From an uncultured Pelagibacteraceae bacterium (GTDB taxonomy: Bacteria; Pseudomonadota; Alphaproteobacteria; Pelagibacterales; Pelagibacteraceae): a stretch of DNA of 40,260 nucleotides. The position numbers and the translations under genes are program-made. The notes beneath the pieces are model-generated. The model was given only the letters and a program-made list of their open reading frames with translations, was not told the origin of the DNA and made no database searches. Positions 24,129 through 37,090 of the stretch are shown one piece after another. The stretch spans positions 1 to 40,260 of the forward strand of contig CACJGL010000010.1 in NCBI GenBank assembly GCA_902592965.1, written 5' to 3'. Numbering within the stretch: the first letter of the stretch is position 1; every line of letters starts with the position of its first letter.

Positions 24129-25040
24129 ATGTTATCTGATAAATCTACAGTTTGCCCTGTTAATCTACTTAATATAGCCCATCAAAAAAGGGGTGTAAAA
24201 GCAGCCATTGTAAATGCAGGCAAAAAATTACCAATGATGTCGGTAATGGATGCTGTCTCTGAAAAATTGATCACCCCAATATTAATAGGTGATAAACAAA
24301 AAATACAAGAATGCGCAGATGAGCTTAAATTTGATATATCAAATTTTGAAATAATTAATGAGCCAGTTGAAAATAATACAGCAGGTATTGCAACAAAACT
24401 TGCATCAGAAGATAAAGTAAAAATTATTGTAAAAGGACATATCCATACTGATATATTAATGAAAGAAGTTCTTAAAAGAGAGTATAAATTAATCGGAAAA
24501 ACAAGACTAAGTCATATTTGGCATATGACATTACAAAAAGATGATAAACCATTAATCATAACCGATGGAGCATTGAATGTTTCTCCTAACCTAAAAACTA
24601 AAATGCATATTTTAAGAAATGTTATAGATTTTAGTCATAGAATTAATATTCCAAGACCAAAGATTTCTGTTCTTTCAGCAACAGAGGAAGTTATTGATAG
24701 TGTACAGAGTTCGGTTGAAGCTAAAGAGTTAACTGAATTGGCAAGTAAAGAAAATTTTAATGCTGATATATTTGGACCCTTAGCATTCGACAATAGTATT
24801 TCAAAAAAATCTACTTCTATTAAGGGAATTGAGAATATAGTTGCTGGAGAAGCTGATGTATTATTAGTTCCAAATGTCGAGACTGGAAATGCGCTTGTAA
24901 AAATGATGATTTATTTTATGGGAGCATGTGCAGCAGGTGTAGTTGTTGGAGGTAAAGTGCCTGTTGTTATAACTAGTAGATCAGATGATGCGACAGCAAG
25001 ACTTGCTTCTATAGCTGCAGCTGTTGTTGCTTTAGATTAA
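24129..25040 (+). CDS. Phosphate acetyl/butyryltransferase
   Basis: The 303-residue product is of PF01515 type: KAAIVNAGKKLPMMSVMDA near the N terminus, IVKGHIHTDILMKEVL (about 99-115), ITDGALNVSPNL, FGPLAFDNSIS, and a C-terminal VVVGGKVPVVITSRSDDA signature. It exchanges phosphate and CoA on a short acyl group. Its form is that of the Pta domain of Pta/enoyl-hydratase fusions, but without the fused part. It could convert acetyl phosphate, the product of Xsc in taurine catabolism, to acetyl-CoA. No acetate kinase gene lies beside it. A HisD-like gene follows 59 bases later. Confidence 0.85.
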   Translation: MLSDKSTVCPVNLLNIAHQKRGVKAAIVNAGKKLPMMSVMDAVSEKLITPILIGDKQKIQECADELKFDISNFEIINEPVENNTAGIATKLASEDKVKIIVKGHIHTDILMKEVLKREYKLIGKTRLSHIWHMTLQKDDKPLIITDGALNVSPNLKTKMHILRNVIDFSHRINIPRPKISVLSATEEVIDSVQSSVEAKELTELASKENFNADIFGPLAFDNSISKKSTSIKGIENIVAGEADVLLVPNVETGNALVKMMIYFMGACAAGVVVGGKVPVVITSRSDDATARLASIAAAVVALD

Positions 25041-25099
25041 ACTTCTGTTGAATAAACATCTTTTATAATTTAAACATTTATAAAATTATAGAAAAGATA

Positions 25100-26386
25100 A
25101 TGACAATTACTTATATAAAAAAAGCTGAAAAAACTGCATTTACAGGTGAAGATGAAACAAGAACTAAAGTAAGTTCAATTTTAAAAGATTTAGAAAAAAC
25201 AAAGGACCAAGGGGTTAAAGATATTTTAAAAAAATTTGATAATTATGAAGGTGATATAATTGTTAGCAAAGAAAAAATTGAAGAAATAAACAAAACTTTA
25301 GATCAGAAGATTAAAGATGATATTCAGTTTTCTCATGAAAGAGTAAGAAAGTTTGCAGAACATCAACTAGAAAATCTTGGAAAAGACTCAGAAGTTGAAT
25401 TATCACCTGGTTTAATAGCAGGACAAAAACTAATACCTGTAAATACAGTTGGGTGTTACGTGCCCGGTGGAAGATATAACAATATCGCCTCTGCTATAAT
25501 GAGTGTAACGACTGCAAAAGTTGCCGGAGTAAAGAATGTTATTGCAACAAGTCCACCAAAAGATTCAAATGGTGCAAACCCAATTATAATTTATACAGCT
25601 AACCTTTGTGGTGCGGATGTAATTATGAACATTGGTGGTATAGGGGCAATCGGTGCGCTTGCATATGGTTGCTTTGGTAATCCAGAAGTAGATATGATTG
25701 TTGGACCTGGAAATAAATTTGTAGCAGAGTCTAAAAGAATTTTATTTGGAAAAGTTGGAATTGATTTATTTGCTGGACCGACAGAAATAGGCATAATTGC
25801 TGATCATACAGCTGATAAAGAAATAATTGCTTATGATTTAGTTGGACAGGCTGAACATGGCCCTGACTCTCCTGCTTGGCTTTATACTACTGATAAATCT
25901 TTATGTGATTATGTGATGAAAAGAGTTCCAGAAATTATTCAAGAACTACCTGAACACAACAGAAACAATGCTGATGCTGCATGGAGAGATTATGGAGAAG
26001 TAATCATGTGTGAAACTAAAGAGGAAATGTTAAAGGTTAGTGATGAATATGCTCCTGAACATTTAGAGGTTCAGGCTGAAAACTTAGATTGGTATTTAAA
26101 AAATTTAAAAAATTATGGTTCATTATTTTTAGGTGAGGAAACAACAGTTGCATATGGTGACAAATGTTCTGGACCAAATCACATTTTACCAACAAAGGGA
26201 GCAGGAAAATATACTGGCGGCTTATACGTTGGAAAATTTATAAAAACTGTTACTTACCAAAAAATGAATAAAGAATCTAATAAAGAAGTCGGTGCTGCTG
26301 CAGCTCGAATTTCTAGGTATGAGGGTATGGAAGCGCATGCTAGAACTGGTGATGTTAGACTTCGAAAATATGGTTTTTCAAATTAA
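25100..26386 (+). CDS. HisD-family dehydrogenase, HpsN-like (sulfopropanediol dehydrogenase type)
   Basis: The 428-residue protein has the histidinol dehydrogenase fold with the zinc-site residues: Q and H in GQAEHGPDSP, D in YGDKCSGPNH and H in MEAHARTG. The catalytic E-H pair is in YAPEHLEV. Two parts depart from true HisD and resemble HpsN: WRDYGEVIMCETKEEML (about 295-311) and AGKYTGGLYVGKFIKTVTYQ. HpsN oxidises (R)-2,3-dihydroxypropane-1-sulfonate. There are no histidine-pathway genes around, which supports a catabolic role. The neighbours are a Pta-type enzyme and a ProXW-like importer, so the substrate may be a hydroxylated sulfonate or another alcohol taken up by that system. Confidence 0.75.
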   Translation: MTITYIKKAEKTAFTGEDETRTKVSSILKDLEKTKDQGVKDILKKFDNYEGDIIVSKEKIEEINKTLDQKIKDDIQFSHERVRKFAEHQLENLGKDSEVELSPGLIAGQKLIPVNTVGCYVPGGRYNNIASAIMSVTTAKVAGVKNVIATSPPKDSNGANPIIIYTANLCGADVIMNIGGIGAIGALAYGCFGNPEVDMIVGPGNKFVAESKRILFGKVGIDLFAGPTEIGIIADHTADKEIIAYDLVGQAEHGPDSPAWLYTTDKSLCDYVMKRVPEIIQELPEHNRNNADAAWRDYGEVIMCETKEEMLKVSDEYAPEHLEVQAENLDWYLKNLKNYGSLFLGEETTVAYGDKCSGPNHILPTKGAGKYTGGLYVGKFIKTVTYQKMNKESNKEVGAAAARISRYEGMEAHARTGDVRLRKYGFSN

Positions 26387-26411: not shown

Positions 26412-27953
26412 ATGAGTAAAGAAAAAACAGTAAAAAATACATTCAAAGATTTTGCCCAACAAAATGGCGATTATTACAGTAAAGTTTTCAGTTTAATTCA
26501 AAGAAACCAATTAAAATTATATCATATAAATTACTCGGCTCTATTAGGAGGTTTCTTTTGGTGTGCTTTAAGAGGGAACTGGTTTCTTTTTTTTCTAAGT
26601 TCATTTTTAGATTTAATAGCTGCAGTAAATATAACTTTATATTTTAGATATGGCGCTGGTATTGAGCAAGCAATATTAGATAAAAAAGATTTTTTGGTTG
26701 ATAGATACTCAACCTGGCAAGATAGTTCTTTAATTTATGCAATTTTAACTATTATCTTAGGTCGAATATTAATTGGTTGGTTAGCAGATAGAGTTTACAT
26801 TAAACAATTTGATAAGTGGCAAATAAGTAAAAAAACATCATCAGGTTTTAACTTCTCGAGACTTATAAACGTTTTTTTAGTTTTAGCATTAATTTGGCCT
26901 TTAACATTATATAGATCATCACAATTCGCTCCTGATGAAAGAACTTGTATCAAACAACATAGAGCAATGGAAAAAGGTGCCGAGGTATCTTTTAAAAAAA
27001 GATTTGATTGTTTCTTTATATCTGAATTTCCTATTTTAATTTGGATAGATAGACCTGTTAAAGTTAGCTATCCAAGAAATGAGGATGGCACTAGATATGT
27101 AAAGAAAAAACCTCCTAGAGAAGGAATGCCTACAATTACTCTTAATAAATATGTTTCACAAAAAATTGAGGAAAAAGTTGGTTATTTAACTGCATTTCAC
27201 GGATATGTTTTTGATGCTGCAACAGATGGAATAAGGTCATTATTAAAGGGGATATCGGCTTTATTTGTTGGAACACCATGGATAATCACGGGTGGAATAT
27301 TTTTACTTGTAGCTCATAAGATTGCGGGATTTAGAGTTACCATGTTTGTAGCATTTGCACTTATCTATCTCGCCTTATTTGGTTTTTGGAATACAGCAAT
27401 GGATACTATGGCTTTAGTATTAACCGCTACTTTAATATGTTGTGCTATTGGACTGCCTTTAGGGGTTTTGGTTGGAAAATCAAATCGAGCTGAAACAATT
27501 ACAAGGCCTATTCTAGATGTAATGCAAACGATTCCTTCATTTGTATATTTGATACCGGCAGTTGCTTTTTTCTCTGTTGGAAAACCACCAGGAATTATTG
27601 CAACTGTAATATTTGCAATGCCTCCTATAGTAAGATTAACAGCTTTAGGAATTAGACAAGTTCCATCAGAAATTAAAGAAGCAGCTCTTGCTTTTGGTTC
27701 TACAGAAAGACAACTATTATATAGTGTTGAGTTGCCACTTGCCCTTCCCTCTATAATGGCTGGTATAAATCAAGTAGTCATGATGTGTTTATCAATGGTT
27801 GTTATTGCTGCTTTAATTGGTGCTGGAGGAATGGGTTTAATAGTTGTTGAGGCTTTAGCGAACACAAAAATTGGAAGAGGAATTTTAGCAGGTCTTGCAA
27901 TTGCTTTTATAGCTATGATCATTGATAGAGTGGTACAGAAAGCTACAAAATAA
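26412..27953 (+). CDS. proW: ProW-like ABC permease with N-terminal extension
   Basis: At 513 residues it is longer than usual ProW (~350). The transport core is about residues 290-510, with the contact loop EAALAFGSTERQLLYSVELPLALPSI. The first ~240 residues are extra. They hold a DUF2628-like start (INYSALLGGFFWCALRGNWFLFFLS, about 39-63), further membrane helices near 107-130 and 151-168, and a polar region with two cysteines (about 170-265). It lies 25 bases after the HisD-like gene and 72 before proX. No ProV-type ATPase gene is adjacent. The family imports glycine betaine, proline betaine and similar osmolytes. Confidence 0.85.
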   Translation: MSKEKTVKNTFKDFAQQNGDYYSKVFSLIQRNQLKLYHINYSALLGGFFWCALRGNWFLFFLSSFLDLIAAVNITLYFRYGAGIEQAILDKKDFLVDRYSTWQDSSLIYAILTIILGRILIGWLADRVYIKQFDKWQISKKTSSGFNFSRLINVFLVLALIWPLTLYRSSQFAPDERTCIKQHRAMEKGAEVSFKKRFDCFFISEFPILIWIDRPVKVSYPRNEDGTRYVKKKPPREGMPTITLNKYVSQKIEEKVGYLTAFHGYVFDAATDGIRSLLKGISALFVGTPWIITGGIFLLVAHKIAGFRVTMFVAFALIYLALFGFWNTAMDTMALVLTATLICCAIGLPLGVLVGKSNRAETITRPILDVMQTIPSFVYLIPAVAFFSVGKPPGIIATVIFAMPPIVRLTALGIRQVPSEIKEAALAFGSTERQLLYSVELPLALPSIMAGINQVVMMCLSMVVIAALIGAGGMGLIVVEALANTKIGRGILAGLAIAFIAMIIDRVVQKATK

Positions 27954-28025
27954 TAGAAAAATATTAATTGATTATCATTTTTAAAAATTAGATAATTCTT
28001 TCATTAAATTACAAGAGAGGGAAAA

Positions 28026-28982
28026 ATGAAAAAACTAATATTAGGTTTAATATTTTCTTCAATAATGCTTGTTACGACTTCAGCTAAAGCTGCAGGTGAG
28101 AAAGTAATGATCTCAGACTTAAGTTGGACTGGTGCAAAAGTTATTGGACACATTATTAAAGCTGTCATTAATGGACCTCTGAATTCTGAAGCAGAAATTG
28201 TTCAGGGATTATCAGACGGTAACTTGATAATGGCTGGAATGGACAAAGGTGACGGGAAAATTGATGTCTATACAGATTTGTGGATGCCGAATAGACAAGG
28301 TATTTGGGATCAATATATTGATGGAAACAAAACTGTAGCTGTCAACACACCTTATAAAGGAACTCAAGATATGTATGTTCCTGCATTTTTAAAAAGCAAA
28401 GTTCCAGATGTTGCAGCAATGAAAGATCCAAACGTTGCAGCGATGTTTGATACAGACGGCAATGGTAAAGGTGAATACTGGGCTGGTGATGCTGGATGGA
28501 AATCTACAAAAATGTGGCAAGTTAAATTTAAAAGTTATGGTTTAACTGACCTTTGGGAGCCAAATATTATTCCACAAGATACTTTTAAAGCACAATTAAA
28601 AGATGCAATTGATAATCAAAAGCCAATATTATTTTATTATTGGACACCAGAATGGTTACATGCAGCTTATGACTTACATGAAATTGGTGAGCCTGCTTAC
28701 ACTGAAGGATGTGATTCAAATATGAACTTAGATGCTGAAGATTGGTTAGAAGTATCAGAGTTTCCTTGCAAAAGTAGACAAGCGACTATTTATGTAGCTT
28801 ATTCAAAATCTTTGGAAAAAAGAAATCCAAAAGCTGCTAAATTTTTAAGTCAAATGGCTATGGACCCTAAAGTAATCAACCAATGGATATTAAAAGTTGG
28901 AAGAGATGAAATGGATGCTGACGATATGGCAGAAGAATGGGTTAAAAACAATATGTCTACTGTAAATAAGTGGATAAACTAA
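28026..28982 (+). CDS. proX: ProX/OpuAC-type periplasmic binding protein
   Basis: The 318-residue protein has a signal peptide (MKKLILGLIFSSIMLVTTSAKA) and the OpuAC fold: ISDLSWTGAKVIGHIIKAV, then DVYTDLWMPNRQGIWDQY, and a late FYYWTPEWLHAAYDL. The tryptophan and tyrosine boxes are typical of pockets for quaternary ammonium groups. A DTDGNGKGE loop (about 140-148) resembles a calcium-binding DxDxNG loop and may bind a metal. Four cysteines could form disulfides. GAGAGGGA precedes the ATG. It is the last gene of its operon and a hairpin follows. Confidence 0.85.
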   Translation: MKKLILGLIFSSIMLVTTSAKAAGEKVMISDLSWTGAKVIGHIIKAVINGPLNSEAEIVQGLSDGNLIMAGMDKGDGKIDVYTDLWMPNRQGIWDQYIDGNKTVAVNTPYKGTQDMYVPAFLKSKVPDVAAMKDPNVAAMFDTDGNGKGEYWAGDAGWKSTKMWQVKFKSYGLTDLWEPNIIPQDTFKAQLKDAIDNQKPILFYYWTPEWLHAAYDLHEIGEPAYTEGCDSNMNLDAEDWLEVSEFPCKSRQATIYVAYSKSLEKRNPKAAKFLSQMAMDPKVINQWILKVGRDEMDADDMAEEWVKNNMSTVNKWIN

Positions 28983-30150: not shown

Positions 30151-31089
30151 ATGATTGATAGATTGGCAAAATTTAATGAACTGGTTCCAAGCAGTCTTCC
30201 TTTTGTAGAGGGGAGGCTAGAAGGTCATAAAGAAAGAAAAAATTATACAATTATTGGACGTGGAGTTGCTGAAGACACCAAACAATTAATAAAAATACAG
30301 TCTTTACATGGGTATAATTTAGGAGCTGTGAGTGCTATGCCAAAAAATGGATCTGGTCTTCACAGTCATACCACGGCTGAAGTGTTTGTAATTTACTCGG
30401 GTAAATGGAGATTTTATTGGGGTGCTGATGGAAAACAAGAAACAATATTAGAAGCTGGCGACATAATTTCAATGCCTACAAATATGTTCAGAGCATTTGA
30501 AAATGTTGGAGATAAAGAAAGTTTGATGTTTGTTGTATTAGGCGGAGATGATCCTGGTATAATAACATGGATTCCAGAAATTTTAAAAAAGGCAAAAGAG
30601 ACCGGTATGGCATTGCTTGATGATAATTCGTTAATAGATTTAAAAAAGGTTGAAGTGCCTAACGGTAGAAAGATGATAGAGCCTATCACTCAAGATGAAT
30701 TAGAAAGATTTGATAATTATTTGCCAGAAGAATTAGAAAAAAATATTTATAGAAATAAACAAAACAATATTAGCGATGAAGTTAATGGTATTAAATTATA
30801 TCAAGTATTAGGAAACAAATTTAATAAAAAAACTTATGAACCTTCAATCAAACAAGATACTGGATTTAATTTAACAACTTTAAATTCTATATCTGGTGAA
30901 ATTAAAGATATTGAATGTATAAAGCCTACCGTTCTTTTTGCTCAAGAGGGAAATTGGAAAATAGTAATAGGAAACTCAAATATAAAATTAGAAAAAGGAG
31001 ATACTTTTTCAGTTCCTTTGAGTAGCAAAATAGATATCTCTTGTAATAATTCAGAAAATAGTATTTTAAATTTTGTTAGTCAGATCTAA
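30151..31089 (+). CDS. Cupin-domain protein
   Basis: The 312-residue product has a clear first cupin motif, GLHSHTTAEVFVIYSGKW, with metal ligands H71, H73 and E77. The second motif region reads GDIISMPTNMFRAFENVG and lacks the usual fourth histidine. The C-terminal part (about 205-310) looks like a second, degenerate beta-barrel. Possible roles are dioxygenase, isomerase or sensor. It is the first gene of a plus-strand operon continuing with SnoaL-like, MetE-like and ABC genes. The stop shares its last base with the next ATG (TAATG). Confidence 0.75.
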   Translation: MIDRLAKFNELVPSSLPFVEGRLEGHKERKNYTIIGRGVAEDTKQLIKIQSLHGYNLGAVSAMPKNGSGLHSHTTAEVFVIYSGKWRFYWGADGKQETILEAGDIISMPTNMFRAFENVGDKESLMFVVLGGDDPGIITWIPEILKKAKETGMALLDDNSLIDLKKVEVPNGRKMIEPITQDELERFDNYLPEELEKNIYRNKQNNISDEVNGIKLYQVLGNKFNKKTYEPSIKQDTGFNLTTLNSISGEIKDIECIKPTVLFAQEGNWKIVIGNSNIKLEKGDTFSVPLSSKIDISCNNSENSILNFVSQI

Positions 31090-32048
31090 TGAAAGGATTT
31101 GATAGTAATTATAAAAATTTAACTGATTACATTTTAAAAATTACTAAACAAATTTGGGAAGGGAAAGATGTCGAGTCAATATCCAAATATTATTCAGAGA
31201 ATATCCCTGTAAGATCACCTTTTGGAGTAACCTATGGTTTTAAACCTGTTATTGATGCAACCTATAAAACTTTAGACGAATTTCCTGACAGACAATTATT
31301 AGGTGAAGATGTAATTTGGAGTGGAAATGATGATGAAGGATATCATTCATCTCACAGAATTCTTAGCAAAGCTACACATTTAAATGACGGGTATTACGGA
31401 AAAAAAACAGGAAACAAAATTGTTTATAGAGTTATAGCCGACTGTGCATGTAAAAATAATCAGGTTTATGATGAGTGGATTGTGAGAGATCAAGGTGCAA
31501 TGGTTCGACAGCTGGGTTATACACCTGAGCAATTTGCAAGGCATTTAATTGATAAAGAAGGTGGGGTATCTAAAGCTATCAAAGTTTTTAATAGATCTTC
31601 TGATAAAAAGTCAGATTATACTCCAGTTAAAGTTAATGAAGTTTCATCAGGTTATATATATTCCAATATTTTAAAGAAAATATTTAATAATAATTATGAT
31701 TTTGAAGATTATGATAGAGCAGTCAGTCTATTTTGGCCAAGTAATAAAGTTGGAAATGGCAGTGAAGATATAATTAAATATTGGAGCTCTTTAAAAAATA
31801 TATTTTCTGAAATAAAGTTTACAATCGAACATGTTGCATCATTAGATGAAAAAAATAACAATCAAAAAGCTACAATCAGATGGTTTTTAAGTGGTAAGCA
31901 CTCTAAAGACAGTGAAGAATTCGGGAAAAAGACTGACAAAGATTTATTTATAATGGGTATAAATCATGCAGAATTAAGAGATGATAAAATAATAAGAGAA
32001 TGGGTATTGTTTGATGAAGTGGCTATTTGGAAACAAATATTAATGTAA
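31089..32048 (+). CDS. Second tandem SnoaL-like protein
   Basis: The 319-residue product contains two SnoaL-like units: about 10-160 (IWEGKDVESISKYYSENIPV, then VYDEWIVRDQGAMVRQLG) and about 190-319 (DYDRAVSLFWPSNKVGNG, then KIIREWVLFDEVAIWKQIL). It is a relative of the minus-strand SnoaL-like protein encoded just before the cupin. Two such proteins flanking a cupin suggest steps in one catabolic route. It overlaps the cupin gene by one base and is followed by the MetE-like gene after 5 bases. Reaction unknown. Confidence 0.72.
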   Translation: MKGFDSNYKNLTDYILKITKQIWEGKDVESISKYYSENIPVRSPFGVTYGFKPVIDATYKTLDEFPDRQLLGEDVIWSGNDDEGYHSSHRILSKATHLNDGYYGKKTGNKIVYRVIADCACKNNQVYDEWIVRDQGAMVRQLGYTPEQFARHLIDKEGGVSKAIKVFNRSSDKKSDYTPVKVNEVSSGYIYSNILKKIFNNNYDFEDYDRAVSLFWPSNKVGNGSEDIIKYWSSLKNIFSEIKFTIEHVASLDEKNNNQKATIRWFLSGKHSKDSEEFGKKTDKDLFIMGINHAELRDDKIIREWVLFDEVAIWKQILM

Positions 32049-32053
32049 AAACT

Positions 32054-33181
32054 ATGGATAAAATTAAAACCACACATGTTGGAAGTCTGCCAAGATCAAA
32101 AAAGCTATCTGAGATACTATTTAAAAAAGATAAAAATGAATTATTTGATCAAGGAGAGCTTGATAAGATAATTGAAGAAGATGTAAACAAAATTGTAAAA
32201 AAACAAATTAATATCGGAATTGACATTGTAAGTGATGGTGAAATGTCAAAAATCAGTTATGCTACTTATGTCAAGGATCGATTACATGGATTTAGTGGTG
32301 AAAGCGAGAGAAGAGCTCCTAAAGACTTAGATGATTTTCCATCATATAAAGAAAAAATTGCAAAATCAGGAGGCACACCTACTTATACAAGACCATGTTG
32401 TACTGCTGATTTAAAAATTAAAGATACTAAATCTTTAACTAAAGATATCAGTAATTTAAAATCTGCATTAAAAAAAAATAACCATTCTCAAGGATTTATA
32501 AACTCTGCATCACCAGGAGTAATTTCAAATTTCCTTCCAAACAAATTCTATAAAAATGACGATGATTATTTAGAGGCATTATCAAAAATGATGAAAACTG
32601 AATATGATGAAATAACAAAGAATGATTTATTTTTACAAATTGATTGCCCAGATCTTGCGCTAGCAAGACATATGACTTTTAAAAATGTATCAGATGAAGA
32701 ATTTTTAGTAAGAGCTGAAAAACAAATCGAATGTCTTAATGAAGCAATCAAAGATATCGATGCTTCTAAGTTGAGAATGCATATCTGCTGGGGAAATTAT
32801 GAAGGACCTCATATTCACGATATTGGATTAGAAAAAATATTACCTATTGCTTTAAAAGCAAATATCCAAACTTATTTAATTGAAGCCTCGAACCCAAGAC
32901 ATGCTCATGAATGGCAGGTTTTTGAGAATATTAAACTTCCTAATGATAAAGTAATAGCTCCTGGTGTAATAGACTCAACCTCAAACTTCATAGAGCATGA
33001 AGAGTTAGTAAAAAATAGAATAATTCAGTATTCAAAAGTAATTGATAAAGATCAATTGATGGCTGGAAGTGATTGTGGATTTAGTACTTTTGCAGGCTTT
33101 GGAAATGTTGATGAAAATATTGTTTACAAGAAATTTGAATCTTTGGTCGCAGGTGCAGAGCTTGCGTCAAATGCGATTTAA
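32054..33181 (+). CDS. MetE C-terminal-domain methyltransferase (cobalamin-independent type)
   Basis: The 375-residue protein consists of the catalytic C-terminal half of MetE only. It opens KIKTTHVGSLPRS, a family signature. The zinc ligands are present: H243 and C245 (MHICWGN), E277 (LIEASN) and C341 (GSDCGF). Full MetE (~750 residues) also has an N-terminal half; short forms like this act on other methyl donors or acceptors. I chose the ATG at 32054, because the longer reading from 32027 overlaps the SnoaL-like gene. Context in a catabolic operon suggests demethylation of an imported compound rather than methionine synthesis; this is inference. Confidence 0.82.
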   Translation: MDKIKTTHVGSLPRSKKLSEILFKKDKNELFDQGELDKIIEEDVNKIVKKQINIGIDIVSDGEMSKISYATYVKDRLHGFSGESERRAPKDLDDFPSYKEKIAKSGGTPTYTRPCCTADLKIKDTKSLTKDISNLKSALKKNNHSQGFINSASPGVISNFLPNKFYKNDDDYLEALSKMMKTEYDEITKNDLFLQIDCPDLALARHMTFKNVSDEEFLVRAEKQIECLNEAIKDIDASKLRMHICWGNYEGPHIHDIGLEKILPIALKANIQTYLIEASNPRHAHEWQVFENIKLPNDKVIAPGVIDSTSNFIEHEELVKNRIIQYSKVIDKDQLMAGSDCGFSTFAGFGNVDENIVYKKFESLVAGAELASNAI

Positions 33182-33254
33182 AAACTACTTTTAAATTCCC
33201 TAAGGAATATATATCCTTTCACCCATAAATTTAAATTTAATGAGGGAAACAAAT

Positions 33255-34475
33255 ATGAAAAAAATATTAATATCTTTATTGTTTCTTCTTTTTGGAAATT
33301 CTGCTTACGCAGATTGTAACATTAAGAGTGGATCAATAAATATTTTAGCTAATGATTTTCCAGCTTTAAGAACTTTCGTGGAAACTGCTAAAGGATGTAA
33401 AGGAAGTGCAGATTTTAAAGTCACACACTCATCTGAGCACAATAAAATTGCTGTGCCAGCTCTAACTGCAAATCCATCAGAGTTTTCTGCAAGAATTGCA
33501 GCAAATAGCTCTATAGTTCCTTTGATGAACCAAGACTTAATTAGACCACTTGATGATCTTGTTAAGAAATATGGAAAAGGAATACAAGATTCTCAATTGA
33601 TAACAATTGATGGAAAAATAATGGCAGTTGCTTTTATGGCTAACACTCAGCACTTATATTACAGAGAAGATGTTTTAAAAGAATTGGGTATAGCTGTTCC
33701 TAAAACATATGAGGAAGTAGTTGCGGCTTCAGAAAAAATAAGAGCATCTGGTAAAATGCAATATCCTTACGCAGCAGCATACAAAGCTGGTTGGAATTTA
33801 GCAGAAGAATTCGTTAACATGTACATTGGACATGGAGGAGAATTCTTTAAAGCAGGAACTGCTCAGCCAAGCATTAACAATGCAAAAGGTGTAGCAACAT
33901 TAAATATGCTAAAAAAATTAGCAGGTTTAAGTAACCCAGATTATTTAACTCACGATAGTGAAGCTATTAAAGTTGAATGGGAATCTGGAAATGTTGCATT
34001 AATGACTCTTTGGGCATCAAGATCAGGAACATTGCTTGATGATGATGGTGATGCAAAAATTACAGCAGCAACTAAATTAACTGGACCAGCAACAGTTGCT
34101 GGAGGAAACATACCAGCAGCGACTTTATGGTGGGACGGTTTCACATTAGCAAAAAATAGATCTGACGCTGATGCTGAAGCAACATTTAGAGCTTTGGCAC
34201 ACGCAGCTGCTAACAAAAAGATGGTTGCAGATGCAGCGGATCAAGCTGTTTGGTTAATTGAAGGTTTCAAGCCTGGACCAAAATCAATTGGAGTTATCGA
34301 AGCTGTTAAAATGAAAGCTAAACCATATCCAATGTTACCACAAATGGGTTTAATGCATGGTGCATTAGGAAGTGAGATTGTTGAATTTTTACAAGGTAAA
34401 GAGTCAGCAGAACAAGCTTTAAAAGATGTGGAAGCAGCTTACATGAGTAAAGCAAAAGAACAAGGCTTTCTATAA
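33255..34475 (+). CDS. Sugar-type (CUT1) ABC binding protein
   Basis: From the ATG at 33255 the protein has 406 residues, with signal peptide MKKILISLLFLLFGNSAYA and a mature start DCNIKSGSINILAND. It is of the UgpB/MalE type: LYYREDVLKELGIAVPKTYEEV (about 138-159) is the usual mid-domain signature. GAGGGA 8 bases before this ATG supports it over the ATG five codons upstream, which overlaps the ribosome site. Family members bind sugars, polyols, glycerol-3-phosphate or glycosides. It is followed by a hairpin, then two permease genes. Confidence 0.85.
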   Translation: MKKILISLLFLLFGNSAYADCNIKSGSINILANDFPALRTFVETAKGCKGSADFKVTHSSEHNKIAVPALTANPSEFSARIAANSSIVPLMNQDLIRPLDDLVKKYGKGIQDSQLITIDGKIMAVAFMANTQHLYYREDVLKELGIAVPKTYEEVVAASEKIRASGKMQYPYAAAYKAGWNLAEEFVNMYIGHGGEFFKAGTAQPSINNAKGVATLNMLKKLAGLSNPDYLTHDSEAIKVEWESGNVALMTLWASRSGTLLDDDGDAKITAATKLTGPATVAGGNIPAATLWWDGFTLAKNRSDADAEATFRALAHAAANKKMVADAADQAVWLIEGFKPGPKSIGVIEAVKMKAKPYPMLPQMGLMHGALGSEIVEFLQGKESAEQALKDVEAAYMSKAKEQGFL

Positions 34476-34487
34476 TCTATAAATTTT

Positions 34488-34511
34488 AAGTGGGGATGAA
34501 AATCCCCACTT
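34488..34511 (+). other. Hairpin between binding-protein and permease genes
   Basis: AAGTGGGGA (34488-34496) and TCCCCACTT (34503-34511) pair perfectly around a 6-base loop. Only a weak U-run follows. As after tauA, it probably raises the level of the binding-protein mRNA over that of the permeases. Confidence 0.7.
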
Positions 34512-34520
34512 ATTACATTA

Positions 34521-35549
34521 ATGCCTAACAAAACTTTTTTTTGGTTTTTCTTGCCAACTGGATTGGCAATGATTTTATTTATAGGTCTTCCTATTATTTC
34601 AACAGGGATACAATCATTTTATGCGCAGCACGACCAAGTTGTTAAGGAAGTAAAAAAATGTGATCCTTTTGGATGTACAGTTTCTATAGTTGTTGACCAA
34701 GAAAAAACCTCTAAAATTCGAGAAGAAAAGCCTTTAGGAAAATTCAATGGATTTGGGACTTATGTAGATAGAAATCATCTTGCAATAGAAGAAATTGGAA
34801 AATTTTGGAATGAAACAAATACTTTTGGGGAATTTGTAGATCAAGTTACCAACCTACCCTTTTACAAGGCTCTAATTTTTACTTTAACCTATTGCTTGTT
34901 TGTAACGCCTAACGTCTTACTTTTAGGTTTTATAATTGCTTTAAGTCTTAATGCAGTAACTAGAAGAATTAGAGGACCACTAATATTTGGAACCATATTG
35001 CCGATGATTGTTACTCCATTGGTAGGTTCTTTAGTTTTATTTTGGATGATAGACGCAGAAGGAATTATTGGAGCGAATTTGCAAATGTTGATGGATGACC
35101 CTTATTTATCCTTAAAATCCTCAAAAACTCTTACTTGGATAACTATAATAATTTATGGAATTTGGCACCATTCACCGTTTGCTTTTGTAGTATTTTATGC
35201 AGCTTTACAAACTGTTCCTCAAGAACCTGTTGAGGCAGCTATTATTGATGGAGCATCAAGATGGCAGAGAGTAAGACATATTGTTTTACCTCATATTTAT
35301 CCTGTAGTTACATTTGTTGCTCTCATATCCTTGATGGATAATTTTAGAGTTTTTGAGCCTATAATTGGTTTTAGTGCTGAAGGAAGTGCTCAATCTTTAT
35401 CTTGGTTAATTTATGATAACCTCGTTAATGAGGAAGTAATATTATTTGGTTCGGCCGCAGCCACCTCAATGATGACGATTGTTGGGATAGCCATACTTTT
35501 AGCACCAGTTTTAATAAGAACATGGAAGGAATTTAGGACAGCGAGATAA
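34521..35549 (+). CDS. Sugar-type ABC permease 1 (MalF/UgpA-like)
   Basis: The 342-residue product has six membrane helices and the contact loop VEAAIIDGASRWQRVRHIVLPHI (about 236-258). A ~80-residue periplasmic insert after the first helix contains two cysteines (KKCDPFGCTV). The next permease gene begins directly after its stop. With the second permease it should form the membrane channel of the importer that uses the upstream binding protein. No ATPase gene is in the operon. Confidence 0.88.
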   Translation: MPNKTFFWFFLPTGLAMILFIGLPIISTGIQSFYAQHDQVVKEVKKCDPFGCTVSIVVDQEKTSKIREEKPLGKFNGFGTYVDRNHLAIEEIGKFWNETNTFGEFVDQVTNLPFYKALIFTLTYCLFVTPNVLLLGFIIALSLNAVTRRIRGPLIFGTILPMIVTPLVGSLVLFWMIDAEGIIGANLQMLMDDPYLSLKSSKTLTWITIIIYGIWHHSPFAFVVFYAALQTVPQEPVEAAIIDGASRWQRVRHIVLPHIYPVVTFVALISLMDNFRVFEPIIGFSAEGSAQSLSWLIYDNLVNEEVILFGSAAATSMMTIVGIAILLAPVLIRTWKEFRTAR

Positions 35550-36431
35550 ATGGAATACGGACTTGATAAAAGATCAAATGCTTTAAAAATTTTTAATACA
35601 ACCTTTATAATAGTTTGGCTTTTGGTTGCATGCTTTCCTTTTATTTGGACTTTCTGGGGGTCATTTAAAGTAAGAGCTGACTTTTTTTCAAGAGCTGACT
35701 GGTGGTATGCTATCACAGCATTCAATACATTGTTAGAAACTGGAGGAAAGTTTACAACAGATGCTTATAGTCAAGCTTGGACTGAAGGAGAGTTTTGGAA
35801 GGCATCTAGGAATACAGTTATAGTTACATTTTTTGTTGTAACCATTTCTCTGTTCCTCGGTACCTTAGGAGCTTATGCTTTATCTAGATCTACAAGAAAT
35901 TATGCATTTTGGATTTTAATTGCAGCATTAATTTTTAGAGCAATGCCGCACATTACTCTAGTCTCTGGTTATTTATTTCCCTTTTTTCAATTACAAATTT
36001 GGGGAATACTACCTACGACCATCGTTGTTCTTGTTGCGATAAATCAACCATTTACTTTATGGTTATTGTATTCATTTTTTAAAACTGTTCCTAAAGAACT
36101 TGATGAAAGTGCTTTAATTGATGGCTGTTCTTATTTTCAAGCTTTTAGACATATCATTATGCCAGTTATGTGGCCTGGAGTAATAACAGCTGGATTATTT
36201 AGTTTAATGCTTGCGTATAACGATTTTACAGTGACTGCTCTTTTATTGAACCAGGAAAATCATACTATGGTTCCTAAAATACAAAGTTATCTTGGAACAA
36301 ATCAACATGAAGGTAATTTGATGTGGGCTGTTTCTGCAGTTGTTTCGGCTACTGCTCCTTTATTTATGTTAGTTATGTTTTTCCAAAGACAAGTAATCAG
36401 TGGATTAACAGCTGGTGCTGTGAAGGGATAA
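35550..36431 (+). CDS. Sugar-type ABC permease 2 (MalG/UgpE-like)
   Basis: The 293-residue product has six membrane helices and the contact loop DESALIDGCSYFQAFRHIIMPVMWPG. It partners the preceding permease. A periplasmic region (about 38-75) separates the first and second helices. Its stop overlaps the ATG of the HAD-fold gene as TAATG, so the latter is part of the same operon. Confidence 0.88.
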   Translation: MEYGLDKRSNALKIFNTTFIIVWLLVACFPFIWTFWGSFKVRADFFSRADWWYAITAFNTLLETGGKFTTDAYSQAWTEGEFWKASRNTVIVTFFVVTISLFLGTLGAYALSRSTRNYAFWILIAALIFRAMPHITLVSGYLFPFFQLQIWGILPTTIVVLVAINQPFTLWLLYSFFKTVPKELDESALIDGCSYFQAFRHIIMPVMWPGVITAGLFSLMLAYNDFTVTALLLNQENHTMVPKIQSYLGTNQHEGNLMWAVSAVVSATAPLFMLVMFFQRQVISGLTAGAVKG

Positions 36432-37090
36432 TGAATTACAAAGCTGTTTTATTTGGTTCTATTGGAACTTTAGCTGAGACATCAGATCTTCAAAGAGATG
36501 CATTTAATCAAGCTTTTAAAATAAGTGGATTAGACTGGTTTTGGGATGAAGATATATACAGAAAACTATTGTCAAAATCAGGTGGAACTACGAGAATCAA
36601 TGATTACGCAAAAGATACTAGTGTTGAAATAGACGGAAAAAAAATAAGAAATTTAAAAACCAAAATTTTTAATGAATATTTAAACAAACACAAAGTTGAG
36701 CCTAGAGACGGTGTAAAAGAAATAATTCAATTTTGCAAAAAGAACAAAATAAAAATTGGGCTTGCTAGCTCAACAACGAGTAACAATATCAATTCTATTT
36801 TTAACTCATTAAGAGGAAGAATTGAAAAAAAAGATTTTGATTTTATCGGCAATAATGAATTCATATTAAGAGAAAAACCATATCCCGATATTTATAATTA
36901 TGCTTTAAAATACTTGAATATTAACTCAGACGAATGTGTGGCAATTGAAGATACAGAAGAAAGTTTAAATTCTGCTTTAAGTGCAGACATAAAATGTGTT
37001 GCATTTCCTGGAAAATATCACACTCAATACGGATTTGATGGGAACCATTTAAAGGTTAATAAATTATCAAAAAAAATCTTTAATAAATAA
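36431..37090 (+). CDS. HAD-fold protein lacking the catalytic aspartates
   Basis: The 219-residue product looks like the CbbY/beta-phosphoglucomutase group. Motif II (LASSTTSNN, about 111-119), the lysine of motif III (REKPYPD, K149) and the acidic pair (AIEDTEES, E173 and D174) are present. Motif I, normally DxDGT, reads LFGSIGTL, with G9 and I11 replacing both catalytic aspartates. It should therefore not form a phospho-aspartate and may bind without catalysis, or act by another chemistry. The start at 36431 overlaps the permease stop; a longer reading from 36323 would duplicate permease DNA in another frame. It overlaps the converging lysE-like gene by 11 bases. Confidence 0.8.
   Translation: MNYKAVLFGSIGTLAETSDLQRDAFNQAFKISGLDWFWDEDIYRKLLSKSGGTTRINDYAKDTSVEIDGKKIRNLKTKIFNEYLNKHKVEPRDGVKEIIQFCKKNKIKIGLASSTTSNNINSIFNSLRGRIEKKDFDFIGNNEFILREKPYPDIYNYALKYLNINSDECVAIEDTEESLNSALSADIKCVAFPGKYHTQYGFDGNHLKVNKLSKKIFNK

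Follow-up and report, generated by a model that had tools for sequence, protein, structure and literature searches.

The window analysed here is the whole 40,260-nucleotide stretch of contig CACJGL010000010.1 (assembly GCA_902592965.1, positions 1 to 40,260, forward strand) from an uncultured Pelagibacteraceae bacterium of the SAR11 group. SAR11 bacteria are among the most abundant bacteria of the surface ocean and have streamlined genomes. The window contains a block of eight genes, consisting of a seven-gene operon and a divergent gene, snoA (Table 1). Their sequences show an importer of the MalFG type together with a bicupin, two tandem SnoaL proteins, a zinc protein of the MetE type whose homocysteine site is intact, and a CbbY-like protein of the HAD fold that lacks its catalytic Asp residues. 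By its gene content and its conservation, the block is a co-inherited import module and is probably catabolic.

Gene layout and the importer

A preliminary description of this DNA, made from the letters alone, listed seven plus-strand open reading frames and a divergent SnoaL gene, and all are found where it placed them. The families it assigned (cupin, SnoaL twice, MetE half, importer and HAD) are borne out by Pfam. Curated Pfam cut-offs are exceeded by all eight proteins, and an equivalog cut-off in NCBIfam is reached by none of the eight.

Table 1. Genes and other features of the block, with coordinates in the window
Feature	Coordinates	Strand	Basis and remarks
snoA, tandem SnoaL-like protein, 357 amino acids	29036..30109	-	Pfam SnoaL 7.6e-19; start is ATG 30109
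bicupin	30151..31089	+	Pfam Cupin_2 1.6e-11
snoB, tandem SnoaL-like protein, 319 amino acids	31089..32048	+	Pfam SnoaL 1.2e-14
core-MetE-like zinc thiol alkyltransferase (predicted), 375 amino acids	32054..33181	+	Pfam Meth_synt_2 3.2e-16
periplasmic solute-binding protein, family 1	33240..34475	+	Pfam SBP_bac_1 1.1e-15
stem-loop in the gap from the binding-protein gene to permA (perfect stem of 10 bp, GAAA loop)	34488..34511	+	sequence reading
permA, MalF/UgpA-type permease	34521..35549	+	Pfam BPD_transp_1 5.4e-16
permB, MalG-type permease	35550..36431	+	Pfam BPD_transp_1 3.1e-17
CbbY-like HAD-fold protein, motif I GSIG	36431..37090	+	Pfam HAD_2 3.9e-22

The ATG of snoA lies 41 bp from the cupin start. 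The TAATG overlaps and short gaps reported earlier are seen at the cupin/snoB junction (31086-31090, read from the sequence) and at the permB/HAD junction, and the ATG of permB directly adjoins the permA stop codon. For the MetE-like gene, the most likely start is ATG 32054 and not TTG 32027, and alignment with relatives suggests ATG 33255 as the start of the binding protein. The stem-loop downstream of the binding-protein gene possibly has a role in differential expression, giving more binding protein.

By profile comparison, the nearest solved relatives of the binding protein are sugar-type binding proteins, one of them labelled sorbitol. The binding protein and two permeases are of families that match those of the UgpABE/MalEFG-type (CUT1) importers. 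The system differs from these in that the binding protein falls far under NCBIfam equivalog cut-offs and in that no ATPase gene is found in the operon of the window. An ATPase gene directly adjoins snoA in 24 of the 64 SAR11 loci that reach that place. In the window's own genome, which is 79% complete, the best match to an MsmK/UgpC-type ATPase is 42%. Among six SAR11 relatives searched for the ATPase, the gene adjoins snoA in two (91-98%), and the other four carry a homologue of 55-57% at another place in the genome. SAR11 loci without an adjoining ATPase probably share one with another importer, to judge by these homologues.

Conservation within SAR11 and across the Alphaproteobacteria

SAR11 loci were taken as the best 80 of 283 relatives in a contig scan that used the binding protein alone; more distant relatives beyond these 80 fall outside the SAR11 locus counts. 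The preliminary description treated the genes as one set, and in related genomes they are indeed kept together. Wherever a contig reaches the place, the gene is present: snoA in 64/64 loci, the cupin in 65/65, snoB in 68/68, the MetE-like gene in 74/74, permA in 77/77, permB in 74/74 and the HAD gene in 67/67. Gene order is retained in every testable locus, and the flanks beyond the eight-gene block vary from clade to clade. This constancy within SAR11, together with the recurrence of the cluster in distant Alphaproteobacteria, puts the grouping beyond chance. The earlier reading of the block as an uptake and breakdown module agrees with this synteny, which supports co-inherited import and, probably, catabolism.

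The block is not universal in SAR11. A MetE-like orthologue is present in 7 of the 37 searched genomes of the window's genus, and a search of the order yields 16 further MetE-like matches, in a second family, which are 25-29% identical. Among 297 genomes of the order, 53 have matches to snoA, some of them partial and one a remnant. The latter, a short stretch at G610:C1:349624-349764, corresponds to the end of snoA and has two stop codons; no other snoA match occurs in this SAR11 genome, which is 89% complete, and the stretch is probably a decaying remnant.

Between the window and locus L067, which represent two SAR11 clades, the synonymous divergence (dS) is 1.1-2.1 across all compared genes. 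The nonsynonymous divergence (dN) is lowest in the binding protein and permeases (0.03-0.06), higher in the enzymes and snoA (0.16-0.31) and highest in the HAD protein (0.42). By these sequence comparisons, the transporter is the most constrained part of the block and is under strong purifying selection.

Two further observations concern the ends of the block. Among SAR11 loci whose binding protein is >97% identical, snoA occurs as two divergent alleles: in 14 loci its identity to the window's copy exceeds 90%, and in 18 it is about 65%. The pattern, in L024-L066, looks as if one end of the block had been exchanged by recombination. In the second SAR11 clade (34 of the 80 loci; L067 and L088, for example), the HAD gene is closely followed by a convergent gene for an alpha/beta hydrolase, which the window lacks at this position. 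This hydrolase has 28% identity with that of the fuller cluster described below.

In the class Alphaproteobacteria, snoB matches are present in 29 of 385 genomes, the window's own genome counted, and are spread over many families. Regions were taken for 20 of the 28 other snoB genomes (G253, G148, G217, G144, G134, G322, G307 and G235 excluded), and a homologue was any match at E 1e-10 over half of the query, so that some counts may include other systems (the L165 ATPase at 28%, the L168 importer at 25-26%). A cupin homologue is found in all 20 regions, the MetE-like gene and a tandem SnoaL gene in 18 each, and a HisD-like gene and each permease in 17. The binding protein follows in 16 regions, a LacI regulator and an ATPase in 15 each, a small SnoaL gene in 14, a short-chain dehydrogenase/reductase (SDR) gene in 13, an alpha/beta hydrolase in 11, RraA in 9, a GMC oxidoreductase in 3 and HAD in 2. 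The recurrent fuller set comprises the importer with its ATPase, small and tandem SnoaL proteins, a HisD-like dehydrogenase, SDR, LacI, snoB, cupin, the MetE-like protein, the hydrolase and RraA.

The clusters closest to those of SAR11 (L164-L166) have the same divergent snoA and cupin-snoB-MetE layout; the snoA copies that adjoin the cupin there are 52-53% identical. In these clusters, a HisD-like gene directly follows snoA, and RraA sits between snoB and the MetE-like gene in two of the three. The SAR11 block looks like a trimmed form of this fuller cluster. Plasmid copies that include the MetE-like gene are present in Ruegeria conchae, Marinovum algicola and Octadecabacter arcticus. Polyketide tailoring is disfavoured as a function, since no polyketide synthase is listed in these three clusters and permeases are present in 17 of the 20 distant regions.

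Other relatives vary in content. A stretch in Vibrio pelagius carries the importer with four SnoaL-type genes. The Ensifer adhaerens stretch has the importer, SnoaL, hydrolase, LacI and cupin genes together with a 3-oxo-tetronate kinase and an aldolase, a gene set that hints at a sugar acid as the fate of the carbon. On a plasmid of the haloarchaeon Halobellus limi (L197:4750-11143), five consecutive ester-cyclase (SnoaL) genes lie directly 5′ of a MetE-like gene.

The CbbY-like protein finds its best match in the PDB with CbbY (E 2.8e-34, ∼200 aligned residues). It retains the HAD fold, the Lys-Pro of motif III and the Glu-Asp of motif IV found in the CbbY structures (PDB 4uas/4uat group). 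Motif I, however, reads LFGSIGTL rather than LFDVDGTL; the nucleophile and the acid/base Asp are both gone, and aspartyl-phosphate formation is impossible. The replacement of DVDG by GSIG confirms what had been noted before as a nucleophile-less HAD. GSIG is present in all 74 SAR11 copies read.

In the class, the HAD profile matched 38 of the 385 genomes. The 30 loci read divide into 8 with GSIG (at least 167 bits) and 22 with DVDG (at most 164 bits); the 8 unread matches score below 124 bits, and one of these, in G370, a genome that has the cluster, begins at profile position 47 with the motif unseen. snoB is found in 7 of the 8 GSIG genomes and in 22 of the 377 others (Fisher p = 5e-8, or 6e-7 excluding the window's own genome, with unread HAD matches treated as non-GSIG). 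The gene for the GSIG protein is linked to cluster genes in SAR11, G397, G169 and G221. In G319, G273 and G312 the stretch read shows no such linkage, and G164 has a GSIG HAD without a snoB match. The HAD protein tracks the cluster.

Upstream of the block, the window carries a phosphotransacetylase-like gene and, after it, a HisD-like one (24129-26386; the latter at 25100-26386). The window's hisD is 54.5% identical to an annotated hpsN, which encodes sulfopropanediol 3-dehydrogenase, and the pair suggests, by homology, a separate sulfonate function (2,3-dihydroxypropane-1-sulfonate, DHPS) beside the operon. The HisD-like enzyme of the fuller clusters is 47% identical to this HpsN-like gene, and HisD-like matches in 41 SAR11 loci (∼47% where shown) represent the same HpsN-like neighbour. 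The gene was rejected as a pathway member, since it is nearer to hpsN than to the clusters' HisD-like gene and its distance to snoA varies between loci; it is a neighbour of the operon. Between hisD and snoA (26412-28982) lie genes for a glycine-betaine-type permease and binding protein. The binding-protein gene of this pair is found at >90% identity in 7 of the 64 SAR11 loci with 7 kb upstream of the solute-binding protein gene, and by this distribution the pair looks like a variable insert.

The enzymes and their possible chemistry

Of the MetE domains in Pfam, the MetE-like protein matches Meth_synt_2 alone; the N-terminal MetE domain was not found in its 375 amino acids. The zinc residues H243, C245, E277 and C341 (E. 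coli 641, 643, 665 and 726) are invariant in all 16 aligned members, the window included, the placement of E277 being that of an hhalign profile alignment where three mafft runs put another residue. The homocysteine residues S11, E63 and D197 (E. coli MetE Ser433, Glu484 and Asp599) are likewise invariant in 16/16. The folate contacts W561 and E605 of E. coli MetE, and its H694, are replaced by F/S, L/S and T/K, respectively, in the 16 members, although one of three mafft runs placed a His at the E605 position. The equivalent of E. coli R515 is ambiguous, an invariant Arg (R113) lying one or two positions off.

With the zinc and homocysteine residues invariant and the folate contacts replaced, the acceptor is likely to be a thiol of the homocysteine type, and a folate donor as used by MetE is unlikely. 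It had been proposed in the preliminary description that a methyl group is passed to folate or homocysteine. The homocysteine part is supported by the activating residues that are present; transfer to or from folate after the fashion of MetE finds no support, as W561, E605 and H694 are replaced.

Short MetE families have been tested by their four zinc and three homocysteine residues (Price et al., 2021; PMC7857596). All seven are present here. The protein resembles the core methionine synthases MesA-MesD of that paper in being a short catalytic half with the same two sets of residues and no N-terminal domain, and it differs from them by the location of its gene in an importer operon. Core-MetE homologues occur in several marine bacteria, where their function is called questionable in another report (PMC12478193). 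The MetE-like gene is the sole PF01717 gene in 7/7 searched SAR11 genomes that bear the cluster, and these seven keep at least one S-methyltransferase (PF02574) gene. MesX (PF08908), the partner of MesD, is found in 0/7 of them, yet 14 control genomes are equally silent.

The MetE-like protein could instead be a methionine synthase dependent on 5-methyl-tetrahydrofolate (methyl-THF), which recycles methyl-THF from other demethylases; the substrate of the other operon proteins would then be a sugar or polyol without a methyl group. The gene neighbourhood in three sphingomonad plasmids speaks for this. There, the MetE-like gene (42-44% identical) and a gene for an NTF2-like protein of one domain overlap. 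Genes of the aminomethyltransferase family, metF and purU lie within ∼10 kb, and two of the three plasmids also have folD-type and ligA genes there. That the MetE-like/NTF2 pairing recurs among one-carbon genes supports joint action of the two proteins and keeps the folate-linked explanation alive too. R113, being close to the R515 position, also fits, as does the existence of cluster relatives that have no MetE-like gene. In Marinovum, a dimethylsulfoniopropionate (DMSP) block that lies a few kb away from the cluster contains DmdA and T-protein genes. The replaced residues and the absent N-terminal domain argue against methyl-THF as donor, and the plasmid gene tables, which are incomplete, show no folate genes inside the rhodobacterial clusters. 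This explanation is judged unlikely.

In another setting, plasmids of Dietzia and Rhodococcus (L198 and L253), a 41-42% identical MetE-like protein is encoded by a gene that overlaps one for a 2-oxoglutarate/iron oxygenase, with a phytanoyl-CoA dioxygenase-family gene close by and no SnoaL gene listed. From its position, the oxygenase is a further candidate for a methyl-donor partner.

The AlphaFold model of the snoB protein (predicted local distance difference test score, pLDDT, 94.2) has two SnoaL/ketosteroid-isomerase domains. In structure it is most similar to SnoaL-type proteins with a single domain (Z up to 17.6 over 134 residues). SnoaL/NTF2 folds carry out acid-base chemistry without cofactors. 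Limonene epoxide hydrolases match the halves of the protein at Z ∼15, and Foldseek ranks Lsd19, a polyether epoxide hydrolase of two domains, first (E 2.2e-10), with a poor superposition (root-mean-square deviation 16). These epoxide-opening relatives raise the thought that the MetE-like protein acts like epoxyalkane:coenzyme M transferase, itself a short relative of MetE whose zinc site has the pattern His-x-Cys...Cys, and that together with the SnoaL proteins it adds a thiol to an epoxide or other electrophile with no methyl moved. The equivalents of S433, E484 and D599, however, are all kept, which points to an amino-acid thiol, and only a small chance is given to such a reaction.

The cupin model (pLDDT 90.5) displays a bicupin fold with approximately equal matches to oxalate decarboxylases, quercetinases and seed vicilins (Z ∼20-23; quercetinases ∼21). 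In the N-terminal barrel, H71, H73 and E77 are invariant in the alignments; the usual His of the second cupin motif is replaced, and F113/R114 are invariant. A bicupin might serve as a ring-cleaving dioxygenase in an aromatic pathway, with a PcaD-like hydrolase and a LigK-type RraA finishing the ring opening and the SnoaL and MetE-like proteins stripping side chains and methoxyls. The quercetinase match would suit this, though oxalate decarboxylases and vicilins match equally. The hydrolase of the fuller cluster is nearest to PcaD and its RraA also matches LigK, both under curated cut-offs, and sphingomonad MetE-like genes lie near ligA on two plasmids and ligK on one. NTF2-type deformylases, LdpA and PcfL, act on lignin dimers (PMC12997858). 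The MalFG-type importer, LacI regulator and sugar-type binding protein are at odds with an aromatic substrate, as are the replaced cupin His, the sugar-acid route (3-oxo-tetronate kinase and aldolase) of the Ensifer relative and a Ruegeria conchae cluster in which no coenzyme A ligase or ring hydroxylase is listed. Aromatic ring opening is therefore considered rather improbable.

The SnoaL proteins of the cluster share fold and Pfam family with SnoaL polyketide cyclases, ketosteroid-isomerase-type NTF2 proteins and LdpA/PcfL, the last two being precedents from catabolism, and by analogy a cofactorless acid-base chemistry is plausible for them. They differ from all of these in being tandem two-domain proteins, usually several per cluster, encoded near a sugar-type importer.

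Proposed function and its meaning for SAR11

The reading preferred here, held tentatively and at somewhat less than an even chance, is that the block represents the SAR11 form of a widespread alphaproteobacterial cluster that imports and breaks down a sugar- or polyol-like compound and passes an alkyl group, probably methyl, to homocysteine. A sugar- or polyol-like substrate is proposed because of the importer class and the LacI regulator, SDR and aldolase partners of the fuller clusters. It may be methylated or methoxylated, or perhaps a glycoside, as the preliminary description suggested. The importer would take up this compound with an ATPase encoded beside snoA or shared. The tandem SnoaL proteins may then catalyse a cofactorless isomerisation, elimination or retro-aldol cleavage, and the bicupin would work on the same carbon skeleton. 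On the MetE-like protein, homocysteine, as a zinc thiolate, would accept the alkyl group from a substrate-derived donor, not from 5-methyl-THF, to yield methionine. The HAD-like protein would be a non-hydrolytic binding or regulatory partner.

Several observations weigh against this proposal. The MetE-like gene is absent (tblastn) from cluster-relative stretches of Paracoccus alcaliphilus, Alloyangia pacifica (a stretch that stops shortly past its cupin), Ensifer adhaerens, Priestia filamentosa and Vibrio pelagius; as some cluster relatives lack the gene, the methyl step may be accessory and not core everywhere. The sphingomonad gene near 5-methyl-THF genes would fit a folate donor. The polyol reading is based on distant homology of the binding protein. 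LacI and RraA homologues are absent from the 80 SAR11 loci, where SDR gives two weak matches only, and the SAR11 end product is less clear because of this. No riboswitch, such as an S-adenosylmethionine (SAM) riboswitch, matches at the Rfam gathering threshold in the window, and riboswitch control was rejected on this ground.

A bolder extension is given a lower chance. Under it, the MetE-like proteins would form a further family of folate-independent methionine synthases, with the imported compound as methyl donor prepared by the SnoaL and cupin proteins. This would give a methionine route coupled to catabolism to the subset of SAR11 reported to be without MetE and MetH, with the CbbY relative as a non-enzymatic partner.

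The preliminary description knew of no described pathway with this set of genes, and none was found in the literature searched. Searches of one open library for the gene combination, for homarine and for the binding protein returned no matching operon, pathway or ligand, and no description of a nucleophile-less CbbY form was found in the same library. The module is of a known kind, an ABC (ATP-binding cassette) importer with catabolic enzymes; the enzyme set and its homocysteine-ready MetE-like member are new as far as these searches reach.

The HAD protein, which goes with the cluster and has consistently lost both Asp residues of motif I, is a clear example of an enzyme fold put to a new use. 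The intact homocysteine site, together with the sole PF01717 gene in 7/7 genomes, makes both the SAR11 methionine question and the function of marine core-MetE proteins directly testable. A block kept so strictly in SAR11 implies an important seawater compound that is not yet named.

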